Of a stretch of DNA of 64,000 nucleotides, positions 5,972 through 62,792 are shown one piece after another. The stretch is from Verrucomicrobiota bacterium (lineage in GTDB: Bacteria; Verrucomicrobiota; Verrucomicrobiia; Opitutales; Opitutaceae): assembly GCA_030601755.1 (NCBI GenBank), contig JAUWBF010000007.1:1-64000 (forward strand). The letters are read 5' to 3'. The position numbers and the translations under genes are program-made. The first letter of the stretch is position 1. Every line of letters begins with the position of its first letter. A model generated the notes under the pieces. It was not told the origin of the DNA and did no database searches. It was given only the letters and a program-made list of their open reading frames with translations.

Positions 5972-6047
5972 TGGCAGGCGCGGAGGGAATCGAACCCCCA
6001 ACCAACGGTTTTGGAGACCGCTACTCTACCAATTGAGCTACACGCCT
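5972..6047 (-). tRNA. tRNA-Trp (anticodon CCA)
   Basis: The minus strand folds into a 76-base cloverleaf. The acceptor arm AGGCGTG pairs with CGCGCCT, the anticodon loop CTCCAAA carries CCA, and the T-arm contains GGTTCGATTCC. The 3' CCA is encoded. It lies between tuf and secE, the usual site for this tRNA in many phyla, and is probably processed from the operon transcript. Confidence 0.97.
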
Positions 6048-7396: not shown

Positions 7397-7472
7397 TGGA
7401 GCCCAGAATCGGATTCGAACCGACGACCTCACCCTTACCAAGGGTGTGCTCTACCAACTGAGCTATCTGGGC
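7397..7472 (-). tRNA. tRNA-Thr (anticodon GGT)
   Basis: The minus strand folds into a 76-base tRNA. The acceptor GCCCAGA pairs with TCTGGGC, the D-loop is AGTTGGTA, and the anticodon loop TTGGTAA carries GGT. The T-arm has GGTTCGAATCC and CCA is encoded at the 3' end. It is the first gene of the tuf-rpoB block, 79 bases ahead of tuf. No convincing promoter could be fixed upstream. Confidence 0.97.
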
Positions 7473-14585: not shown

Positions 14586-15433
14586 TGTATTTCGACGCGC
14601 ACAACCACCTGCAGGACGACGCCCTCGCCCCGCACCTCGCCGCCCTCCCCCGCGACCTCGCCGCCCTCCCCCTCGGCGCCGCCGTCGTCAACGGCACCTG
14701 CGAAGAAGACTGGGACCGCGTGGCCACCCTCGCCGCCCGTCACCCTTGGATCATCCCCAGCTACGGCCTGCACCCCTGGGACGCCGGCAATCGCACCGAG
14801 GGCTGGTTTCCCAAGCTCCGCGCCCGCCTCGACGCCGACCCGCGCGCCGCCGTCGGCGAGATCGGCATCGACCGCTGGATGCTCGGCGCCCGCCCCGACG
14901 ATCCCCGCCTCGCCGGCCTGCGCCGCGCCGAGCTGCCCGAGCAAGGCGAGGTCATGCTCAAGCAACTCGCCCTCGCCTGCTCCGCCGACCGCCCCGTCAC
15001 CCTTCACTGCATCCAAGCCTGGGGCACCCTCTGCGAGATCCTCGAACGCGTGAACCTCCCCGCCCGTGGCTTCCTCCTGCACGCCTACGCCGGTCCCGCC
15101 GAACTCATCCCCCGCTTCGCCGCCCTCGGCGCCTACTTTTCCCTCAACCCCGCCTTCCTGCCCCCTGCAAAGAGTAACCCAATAGGTTACTCTTTCCCGA
15201 AAGCCGCTGTGCTTCAAAATTTTAAAATCATCCCCAAAGACCGCCTGCTGGTCGAGACGGACGCGCCCGCCATGCCGCCGCCGCCGGCTTGGCAAACCCG
15301 CCCCCTGACCGACCACCTCAGCCACCCCGCCAACATCGTCGCCGCCACCGAGGGACTCGCCACCGTGCTCGAACTGCCCCTCGACGAAACCCGCGCCCTC
15401 GTCGCGGAAAATTTCCACCGCCTCTTCGGCTGA
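14585..15433 (+). CDS. TatD-family metal-dependent hydrolase
   Basis: The 282-residue protein is a TIM-barrel metallohydrolase of the TatD type (DNA exonuclease or related activity). Metal ligands are visible in order: HNH near the N-terminus (MYFDAHNHLQ), Glu in AVGEIGID, His in VTLHCIQAW, His in LLHAYAG and Asp in LLVETDAP. The segment PAKSNPIGYSFPKAAVLQNF, just before LLVETDAP, is longer and more A/T-rich in codons than the rest. It contains a perfect palindrome at 15169-15195 that looks inserted in frame. The start overlaps sufE. Confidence 0.9.
   Translation: MYFDAHNHLQDDALAPHLAALPRDLAALPLGAAVVNGTCEEDWDRVATLAARHPWIIPSYGLHPWDAGNRTEGWFPKLRARLDADPRAAVGEIGIDRWMLGARPDDPRLAGLRRAELPEQGEVMLKQLALACSADRPVTLHCIQAWGTLCEILERVNLPARGFLLHAYAGPAELIPRFAALGAYFSLNPAFLPPAKSNPIGYSFPKAAVLQNFKIIPKDRLLVETDAPAMPPPPAWQTRPLTDHLSHPANIVAATEGLATVLELPLDETRALVAENFHRLFG
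15169..15195. repeat. In-frame palindrome inside the tatD-type gene
   Basis: AAAGAGTAACC and GGTTACTCTTT form an 11-bp perfect inverted repeat around a 5-base loop (CAATA). The 27 bases are A/T-rich in a very GC-rich gene and correspond to nine in-frame codons at a place where TatD proteins are normally shorter. It looks like a small palindromic insertion tolerated in a surface loop. Origin and mobility are inferred. Confidence 0.8.
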
Positions 15434-21540: not shown

Positions 21541-21563
21541 TTTGTCACTTATTAAGTGACAAA
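21541..21563. repeat. Perfect palindrome at the glnT-creatininase junction
   Basis: The arms TTTGTCACTTA and TAAGTGACAAA flank a single T: 23 bases, perfectly palindromic. Read on the minus strand it supplies the last codons and the TGA stop of the creatininase-family gene. It is the reference copy of a family seen again at 29214, 29280, 62497 and 62572. It is A/T-rich against a very GC-rich background. Confidence 0.9.
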
Positions 21564-29035: not shown

Positions 29036-29385
29036 CGGATAAAGGGATAATGAGGGTGGGCGGCGAAAACATCGCCGCGCGGGGAGAGAGCGTCACTTCA
29101 ATCCAGTCCCGCGCCCGCGGCGAGCAACCCGATTCTGCAAACACTTTCAGCACGCCTCCCCCACCCGCTCCGCCCACTCACACCCCCACCTCCCGGACAA
29201 CGCGCACAAACCATTTGTAACTTATTAAGTGACAAATTTTGATAGCTGCATCCCGCTTTCAGCAAATATCTTAAAGGCGATTGTCACTTATTAAGTGACA
29301 AAGTTTCCGGCGTGTCGGCGCAAGTGGGGCGGTCGGGTCAGACCCGAGGCGGAGTGTGGGGGCCGCCGGGGTGATCGGATTAGGC
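29036..29385. other. 350-base intergenic region between def and the oxidoreductase gene
   Basis: No gene is visible. The region holds a pair of palindromes (29214-29236 and 29280-29302, listed separately). The 43 bases between them are A/T-rich. It lies upstream of the oxidoreductase gene and downstream of def, both on the minus strand, so the oxidoreductase promoter should be here; none could be fixed. Confidence 0.6.
29214..29302. repeat. Composite pair of GTCACTTA/TAAGTGAC palindromes
   Basis: The first copy (29214-29236) has an altered outer half, TTTGTAACTTA instead of TTTGTCACTTA. The second (29280-29302) is palindromic over at least 21 bases. They are 43 bases apart. The same composite, reversed and with the same altered outer half (GTAACTTA), is found at 62497-62594. 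This points to a defined element of about 90-100 bases rather than scattered single sites. Confidence 0.88.
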
Positions 29386-52405: not shown

Positions 52406-52483
52406 GGCGTGTGGTTCGGCCCGTGATCCCGAGGCGGCTCCTGCGGCGGAGGAGTCACGCATGGCACGCCCGTCGCGGGCGCC

Positions 52484-52584
52484 CGGCTGATTTCCTTCGT
52501 CGGCATTATCCGTTTCAGGTTCGAAGGGTCGAGCGGCCGGACGCACCGCAATCTCAGCCTTCCGCGGAAGGCACCCCTACAGGC
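52484..52584 (-). ncRNA. TPP (thiamine pyrophosphate) riboswitch
   Basis: The minus strand carries all conserved blocks of the THI-box in order: AGGGGTGCC, GGCTGAGAT, ACCCTTCGAACCTGA, CGGATAATGCCG and GAAGGAAA. It ends 78 bases before the receptor start. Downstream are a GC-rich hairpin (GCGCCCG/CGGGCGT) and a CTCCT/AGGAG hairpin, without a T-run, so control is more likely at translation or by Rho than by an intrinsic terminator. High TPP should reduce receptor synthesis. Confidence 0.96.
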
Positions 52585-52689
52585 AGGGGTTCAGCGAAAG
52601 CGCACCGCGGGCCGCACCGCAAGCGCAACTGAGGTTACCCCCGTTTGATGGACAGGGAGCGCGGCAAAGCCGAAAAGGAACCCAATACC

Positions 52690-61242: not shown

Positions 61243-62709
61243 TCACCCCTTCACCAGCGTCACCACGCACTCGAGGTGGCGGGTCTGCGGGAAGAGATCA
61301 AAGGGCTGCACGTCGGTCAGCGCGTAGCCGGCCGCGGTGAAGTGGCGCAGGTCGCGCATCTGCGTCGCCGGGTCGCAGCTCACGTAAACCACCGCGCGCG
61401 GACCGTAGGCAAAGAGCTGGTTGAGGAACGACTCGTCGCAACCCTTGCGCGGCGGGTCGATCACGATGGCCGTGTCCGCGGCGGGGAACTCCAACCCGGC
61501 GAAGATCGCCGAGGCGTCACCCGCGAGGAAACGCGTGTTGCCGATACCGTTGAGCTCCGCGTTTTGCTTGGCGAACACGATGCTGCTCTCGCTGATCTCC
61601 ACGCCGGCCACCTGCTCGAAGGAGCGCGCGCAGCTCAGCGCGAACAGGCCGCTGCCGCAGTAGGCGTCGACCAGGAAACGCGCGCCGCTGGCCGCGGCCT
61701 TTTCGCGCACATAGCCGGTGAACGCCGGCAGGATGAACGGGTTGTTCTGGAAAAAATCGCGCGCGAGGAACCGCAGCTTCAGGTCGCCGACCGTCTCGGT
61801 GACGATCTCGTCGTAGTTGGTGGTCACGTGGCCCGACGCGTCGCGCAGCAGCACGGTGGCCGCGCGTTTGTAGGTGTGCCAGCGCGCGTGAATGTCGGCG
61901 CGCACCGCGGTCAGCCGGTCGTTGATCGCCTCGGTCGCGATCTCGCAGCGCGGCACGTCGACGAGGTCGAATCGCGTGCCCTGCCGCAGAAACCCGATGG
62001 GCCGCTCCGCCTGCGCCACCGCCGACTCCGACTTTGGCGTTTGTGATCTGGCGTTTGGGATTTCCGCACTTCGACGCGTCGCGTCGAAGTGCGGCGTGAT
62101 TTTCGAGCGATAGCCGTATTCGCGCGGCGAACCGATGACGGGATTCACCGCATGCTCCAGGCCGGCCATGTGGCGAAGCAGCTCCTCGACCTGACGGCGC
62201 TTCCAAGCGAGCTGCCCGGCGTAGTTGAAGTGTTGATACTGGCAGCCGCCGCAGCGGCCGAAGAGCGGGCACTTCGGATCGGCGCGCTCGGGCGACGGCG
62301 TGAGCACCTCGATCAGATCGGCCTCGGAAAAGTTCTTCTGGTTGCGAAACACCCGCGCCCGCACCCGTTCGCCCGGCAGGCAAAACGGCACCATGACCAC
62401 CCAGCCGCCCGCCCGCGCCTTGCCGCCGTCCGCAGCACCGTCGGCGTCACGGCCGGCCTGCGCGCCCTCCGAATCACCGGCGTCGCCGCCGGCGGATTTG
62501 TCACTTATTAAGTGACAATGGCTCGGGTCCGACGGGGCGGACGCGTGGGACGAGGCGGCGGTAACGGGCGGTTTGTCACTTATTAAGTTACATTCCGCCG
62601 GGAGGGGCACGCGGCCGAGGCCCAGGCCGAGGTTGGTGAGCGTGGTGATTTCCAGCTCGATCTCGGCGTGGTAGGGGAAGGGATGGTCGTTGAATTTCTT
62701 TTTGCCCAC
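61243..62709 (-). CDS. 23S rRNA/tRNA m5U methyltransferase (RlmD/TrmA family) with inserted TRAM domain
   Basis: The protein has an N-terminal TRAM domain, a [4Fe-4S] cluster motif (CPLFGRCGGCQ), the SAM site (FLVDAYCGSGLFALSCA) and the catalytic Cys (VSCDPATQMRDL). It methylates uridine at C5 in RNA. No in-frame ATG precedes the TRAM domain; GTG at 62709 is preferred, TTG at 62784 possible. The TRAM domain is split: after GLGLGRVPLPAE come about 63 low-complexity residues holding two palindromes (each read as LISDK), then VVMVPFCLPGERVRARV resumes. The gene is divergent from the SpoU-type gene. Confidence 0.9.
   Translation of the reverse strand: MGKKKFNDHPFPYHAEIELEITTLTNLGLGLGRVPLPAECNLISDKPPVTAASSHASAPSDPSHCHLISDKSAGGDAGDSEGAQAGRDADGAADGGKARAGGWVVMVPFCLPGERVRARVFRNQKNFSEADLIEVLTPSPERADPKCPLFGRCGGCQYQHFNYAGQLAWKRRQVEELLRHMAGLEHAVNPVIGSPREYGYRSKITPHFDATRRSAEIPNARSQTPKSESAVAQAERPIGFLRQGTRFDLVDVPRCEIATEAINDRLTAVRADIHARWHTYKRAATVLLRDASGHVTTNYDEIVTETVGDLKLRFLARDFFQNNPFILPAFTGYVREKAAASGARFLVDAYCGSGLFALSCARSFEQVAGVEISESSIVFAKQNAELNGIGNTRFLAGDASAIFAGLEFPAADTAIVIDPPRKGCDESFLNQLFAYGPRAVVYVSCDPATQMRDLRHFTAAGYALTDVQPFDLFPQTRHLECVVTLVKG
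62497..62594. repeat. Composite palindrome pair inside the RNA methyltransferase gene
   Basis: One copy (about 62498-62518) is perfect over 21 bases (TTGTCACTTA-T-TAAGTGACAA). The other (62572-62594) has an altered outer half ending GTTACATT. They are about 53 bases apart. This is the composite seen at 29214-29302 in the opposite orientation, with the change in the same outer position. Both copies are read in the same frame and give NLISDK and HLISDK. Confidence 0.9.
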
Positions 62710-62773
62710 GAAAGACACGAAACACACAAAAAGCCCCGAACGAAGCTGTTTTCTTTCGTGTTTTTTCGTGTGT
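62707..62773. repeat. Mirrored repeat with CACGAAA / TTTCGTG arms
   Basis: CACGAAAGACACGAAACACA on the left is mirrored by CTTTCGTGTTTTTTCGTGTG on the right around about 20 bases. Each arm repeats the word CACGAAA/TTCGTG. Unlike the others it lies between two divergent genes, so both promoters must lie in or beside it. Confidence 0.75.
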
Positions 62774-62792
62774 TGATCGGGCAATAACCACC

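Follow-up and report, generated by a model that had tools for sequence, protein, structure and literature searches.

The short palindromes described here, which lie between genes of members of the Opitutaceae and also within them, essential and housekeeping genes included, are probably scattered sites at which a small and so far undescribed HTH protein binds double-stranded DNA; this protein, probably dimeric and of the Cro/cI type, would coevolve with them in this family. We infer the binding from genomic linkage: the gene of this HTH protein is itself bracketed by the palindromes, which makes its product the natural candidate for the site-binding protein. A wider proposal, for which we consider the case evenly balanced, is that of a self-contained, previously undescribed system: a small HTH protein, its gene set between copies of the palindrome, would keep up dozens of sites dispersed over the chromosomes of Opitutaceae, some of them in frame within genes for translation and repair. 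Protein and sites would change specificity together, and parallel versions would exist side by side in a single genome. In the literature searched, no paper was found on either the palindrome or the HTH protein.

Two palindromes in the TRAM loop of an RlmD-type methyltransferase

In the window (the whole 64-kb stretch of DNA that was analysed), positions 61243–62784 of the minus strand encode an RlmD-type 23S rRNA m5U methyltransferase with a TRAM domain (TIGR00479, E 6e-81; PF05958), which matches RumA (1uwv) and whose translation probably begins downstream of the TTG at 62784. A hypervariable TRAM loop is evident when about 40 homologues from Opitutaceae are compared, namely the segment from GLGLGR to WVVMVPF (62404–62610, minus strand), which comprises 69 aa here versus 7–44 aa in nearly all of the homologues; the exception is an 81-aa loop of different sequence (L175). 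The N-terminal TRAM region reads, in order, GLGLGR-VPLPAE-CNLISDK-...-CHLISDK-...-GG-WVVMVPF, and its two heptapeptides correspond to two in-frame copies of the palindrome spaced 75 bp apart: one with the exact consensus TTGTCACTTATTAAGTGACAA at 62498–62518, read as CHLISDK on the minus strand, and a degenerate one, TTGTCACTTATTAAGTTACAT, at 62573–62593, which has one arm of the GTAAC type and a changed outer base and is read as CNLISDK on the same strand. None of the roughly 40 RlmD homologues contains the palindrome, even at four mismatches, so both copies were most likely gained in the lineage of the source genome. This agrees with the first-pass annotation, which had described an in-frame, palindrome-bearing gain in the TRAM domain of an otherwise intact methyltransferase and had suggested the alignment with homologues in which the palindrome proves absent and the loop mostly shorter. 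It had also remarked that the two copies share a reading frame; they do, but this is no coincidence, because on either strand the palindrome is open in a single one of the three frames, so that both copies are forced into it. If the two sites were gained by the source lineage within an insert-tolerant loop, as we propose, RlmD would pay in its coding sequence for a signal that acts at the level of DNA.

Other repeat-like strings occupy the RlmD TRAM loop of several relatives (L178, L182, L199, L205, L220 or L193, L198, L222), in the form of CTCCGTAGCTC..GAGCGAAGGAGG, a REP-like string with a GTAG in it, or of a AATCGAAA-type repeat, both unrelated to the palindrome. With these strings, three or more kinds of repeat are found in this loop, which is a recurrent landing place tolerated by the enzyme. 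A second loop of the same protein (TPHF..PIGFL; 62006–62095 of the window) is also enlarged, with 28 aa versus 9–12 in many relatives, and contains a perfect hairpin, CCGCACTTCGACGCGTCGCGTCGAAGTGCGG, as well as a repeat of the GGCGTTTG type.

Unit, copies and spacing of the palindrome

The repeat unit is a single dyad of about 21 bp, present mostly as solo copies. Five palindrome sites were found in the window versus none in 100 shuffles, and the source genome (G000; 3.55 Mb in 152 contigs) holds 74 sites with up to three mismatches versus none for a reversed control pattern. Besides the two rlmD copies, the window contains an intergenic pair spaced 66 bp apart, the first member at 29215–29235 with one arm GTAAC and the second at 29281–29301, with an AT-rich 49-bp interior, and a palindrome where two predicted ORFs meet (21542–21562), which is kept at the orthologous position in G050, a genome of another genus. 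The first-pass annotation had proposed a composite element of about 100 bases and a search of the genome for it in other genes; that search did recover the palindrome in fmt, rlmN, rsmE, ogt, uvrA and others, but no unit of about 100 bases, and the composite element is not upheld, as solo copies predominate and both the spacing and the interior of pairs vary.

Close pairs are spaced at 44–47, 53–58, 65–68, 75 and 87–90 bp, with unrelated interiors, and spacing classes of similar length recur among them (53, 56–57 and 65–66 bp). The spacings of 38 close pairs are best described by a helical ladder with a period of 10.4 bp (R 0.66, reached by 0 of 2000 uniform controls), and since some of these pairs are orthologous, the 15 distinct spacings were also checked alone, which gave an R of 0.64. 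A profile over 204 sites revealed weak, symmetric C-rich/G-rich flanks (CC..GG) out to about 45 bp, and some copies are prolonged as long GC-rich perfect stems.

Sites within and between genes

ORFs called with a custom codon scorer contain 56 of the 208 sites, and all but two of these (54/56) use the one open frame. Judged by sequence, the host genes include those for a SAM methyltransferase, ogt, OGG, rsmE, a P-type ATPase, a carboxypeptidase and NnrD/E, and further an amidase, lplA, a helicase, fmt, rlmN and uvrA. A protein-level motif, CHLLSDK, can be ruled out as the cause, since conservation is just as high at intergenic sites and the residues change with the site variant. A DNA-level signal appears to impose seven near-identical residues on unrelated proteins and to have been kept over genus-level divergence, so that the palindromes separate DNA-level from protein-level selection inside genes. 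The intergenic sites of the source genome fall between convergent and divergent genes in equal number (nine each). An ordinary transcription regulon was likewise rejected, as no common function of the neighbouring genes was noticed and many sites are in genes or between convergent genes. At one locus (L043, 3028), the palindrome lies over a conserved SpoU/TrmH-like motif in the otherwise closed frame, where the stop codon TAA has become TAC, with no obvious net insertion.

Distribution and positional conservation

Within the order, matches to the exact site with at most one mismatch are restricted to the Opitutaceae, and a degenerate search with the variant pattern TTGTNACNTATTANGTNACAA returned 24 of 346 genomes, again all Opitutaceae. 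The degenerate matches mostly agree between arms, which are of the CACT, CACC, CACG, AACC, AACG, AACT or AACA type; AACT is the main variant in G050, and G402 and G385 have TTTCAC or TTTCAT types. When about 85,000 species genomes were scanned, Opitutaceae-type MAGs and one Marmoricola-labelled contig were found among the matches listed. Copy number swings within a single genus, from 6 in G126 to 27 in G224 (two-mismatch search). G224 has sites at 1.1–2.2 Mb, near the skew-defined terminus, and no ori/ter bias was seen in this single genome.

An all-against-all comparison showed that palindromes align at the same positions of orthologous loci. Because these loci had been chosen by site, 1.6 Mb of G050 served as an unbiased test: 56 sites of other genomes could be aligned to G050 on both flanks at 66–88% identity, and 39 of them have a palindrome at the orthologous spot, with a chance expectation of about 1%. 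Across 18 distinct G050 sites, a mean of 0.39 differences was counted in the 18 fixed core positions versus 4.1 expected from the flanks, and position N1 has changed in 23 of the 36 arms. The same place of the fmt loop reads CNLISDK in G050, CHLLSDK in G312 and G358, CHLLGDK in G202 and CNLLGYK in G196, and has decayed to CHLLNDI in G370, a genome without any site at one mismatch. From the core conservation and the fmt-loop variants we conclude that sites evolve in place toward a genome-specific consensus. At several of the absent orthologous sites, G050 is shorter by 24–200 bp, which implies that site gain involves insertion or that loss involves deletion.

The arms of the dyad behave differently at different positions. 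Only C or A is found at N1, and the classes CC/CA/AA occur at 55/15/1 in the source genome versus 55.0/15.0/1.0 expected if the arms are independent, and at 3/13/24 in the G050 sample versus 2.3/14.5/23.3. Because the arms are independent there and nothing other than C or A occurs, base pairing is not what is preserved at N1, and the pattern fits half-site recognition by a dimer. N2 and the outer positions, in contrast, covary between arms, which counts against half-sites and against the binding-site reading, as it also fits a hairpin or recent copying; recent copying is perhaps the cause.

A candidate binding protein encoded between palindromes

Clustering of site-adjacent genes across genomes yielded one unannotated family of 115–150 aa, in which a long helix at the N-terminus is accompanied by a basic stretch and an HTH (KANLARVLEVPRQRVHDYF..GTQMPDAER). 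In a dozen genomes the gene is bracketed by or adjoins palindromes: it lies between them in G312, JANJTQ, UBA4094, JANXRL, G050 and G224, and in the source genome (L053) it adjoins them, with two sites near the gene start. The neighbouring genes vary, being atpC-like in the source genome, pdxH in g4-type genomes and DUF2721-like in G224, and since the HTH gene thus occurs in different neighbourhoods, gene and sites may be mobile. All six intervals predicted from site spacing alone contain the gene (L443–L448), and in all sequence examined it is enclosed by 13 of 16 site pairs that are 380–720 bp apart, versus none of 50 close pairs. The 1.6 Mb of G050 hold one gene of the family, which is bracketed. 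Two genomes have two paralogues each: in G181, one adjoins AACC sites and the other AACG sites, and in G402 the two occur with the CC and CG site types. The more distant paralogues L111 and L308 have no site nearby.

Residue differences in the HTH may track the site variant, and the pattern is suggestive only: of the three A-type proteins, two have a Q in the recognition helix, which no C-type protein has, and the three TTT-type proteins, members of a single genus, have all lost the arginine of PRQ. No curated family or name for the protein passes cut-off, with Pfam YdaS and HTH_3 matching below it. AlphaFold2, run on four sequences, predicts a bundle of five helices at moderate quality (pLDDT 74), those of the HTH at 77–85 and 89–98; the highest-probability folds in Foldseek are of the Cro/cI type (3op9, CylR2), as weak matches with E above 1. 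We regard the protein as a probable lambda-repressor-like (Cro/cI-type) HTH protein. No catalytic domain was recognised in it, and no profile match was obtained to the MatP, SlmA or Noc families. A phage or plasmid origin was considered and rejected, as the protein had no match in phage or plasmid collections.

Proposed mechanism and alternative explanations

Considering the arrangement of sites and gene, we propose a hypothetical scenario in which the bracketing palindromes would autoregulate the HTH gene, dimers bound to the same helical face may cooperate or bridge, and the dispersed sites would then form a chromosome-structuring or global regulatory system. The copy-number differences within one genus, the varied HTH neighbourhoods and the lack of an ori/ter pattern in G224 count against the binding-site reading. 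Among the close parallels are the sites of matS/MatP, SlmA and Noc (PMC3116907, PMC4331003), likewise tens of short dyads per chromosome that are often in coding regions, where the SlmA sites mainly lie (PMC3116907). Those systems have a dedicated bound protein, which here is a candidate by linkage, and they differ in that the Opitutaceae palindromes bracket the gene of their own presumed protein, have lineage-specific variants and, with the patterns searched, occur in only part of the family. Terminus exclusion of the Noc/SlmA kind was not seen in G224 and was rejected.

The main rival, which we consider unlikely but still of appreciable weight, is a REP-like mobile population in which the HTH gene with its flanking palindromes is the autonomous unit, the solo copies are non-autonomous, the copies inside genes are in-frame survivors, and every variant is propagated along with an HTH paralogue of its own, in much the way that RAYTs accompany REP families. 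Both systems comprise short dispersed palindromes, solo or paired with spacers of similar length and some of them in genes, a protein gene flanked by palindromes and several variants per genome, here each with a paralogue; pairs with spacers of like length and unlike sequence are known from REP dimers (PMC3733652), and the swings in copy number and the several neighbourhoods of the HTH gene fit the same explanation. However, the HTH protein is without a recognised catalytic domain, and the 70% positional conservation together with an almost unmutated core across genera would require constraint after insertion. Moreover, arms shift singly and in place, not as copied units. Positional conservation and arm-by-arm change therefore oppose REP-like mobility as the sole explanation. 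In contrast to REPs, the palindromes lack a GTAG/CGTC tag in the 204-site flank profile and do not need Y1_Tnp, since G340 has eight palindromes and no Y1_Tnp; REPs are also mainly downstream of genes and rare between divergent ones, whereas the palindromes show no such preference. Mobilisation by a RAYT was rejected for the same genome and for the source genome, where no palindrome lies near the Y1_Tnp loci, one of them truncated at the end of a contig.

The first-pass annotation had likened the rlmD insert to the Rickettsia palindromic elements, in-frame palindromes in genes (PMC2229807), that is, to a selfish insert merely tolerated by the protein. The in-frame gain in rlmD that homologues lack and the many genes affected accord with this reading, as does the presence of palindromic DNA in frame within conserved genes, yet we judge it very improbable. 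The unit here is 21–45 bp, as opposed to 105–146 bp with a long stem-loop in the Rickettsia elements, and no unit of 100–150 bp was found; copies instead form pairs 44–90 bp apart with unrelated interiors. Passive DNA would be expected to show about 4 differences in the 18 core positions, compared with the 0.4 observed, which is slower than neutral. The near-invariant core, the positions shared between genera, the orthologous sites that follow genome-specific variants and the linked, bracketed HTH gene further set the palindromes apart from such elements. Nor is an occurrence in another phylum, which the same annotation had pointed out, new by itself, because the GTAG REPs reported in Opitutus terrae are in-frame palindromic inserts within the Opitutaceae (PMC3733652); they are a repeat distinct from the dyad described here.

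An RNA hairpin acting as terminator, mRNA stabiliser or attenuator is the least probable reading: the palindromes can fold and some extend into the long GC-rich perfect stems, but divergent intergenic sites are as frequent as convergent ones, N1 alternates between C and A and not as a wobble-tolerant C to T, mismatched arms occur at Hardy–Weinberg frequency, and no Rfam match was obtained at the sites.

Under the preferred reading, in which the palindromes are binding sites of the HTH protein, the variants (C/A, T/C/G and TTG/TTT) and the paralogues within one genome would constitute a natural series of matched protein–site pairs, in which changes in the specificity of a distributed DNA-binding protein could be tested directly. 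The uncharacterised HTH family may help organise Verrucomicrobiota chromosomes.

Further sites and features

A divergent relative of the palindrome, GTAACCCAATAGGTTAC, with other outer arms (AAAGA/TCTTT), lies at 15174–15190 of the window, and L017 (1617) has a related palindrome, AAAGAGTAACCTATTAGGTTACTCTTT, whose outer arms differ; the two possibly represent a second class of sites in the source genome. The Marmoricola-labelled contig, from a MAG assigned to the Actinomycetota, carries an exact palindrome (L072, 1191–1211), which may reflect a binning error or a transfer. At three loci of G224 (L268/L269, L276/L277 and L281), palindromes are 172–173 or 344–345 bp apart, corresponding to once or twice a length of about 172 bp. 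Features of the window unrelated to the palindromes are a TPP riboswitch (52474–52588) and two tRNA genes (5975–6047 and 7400–7472).
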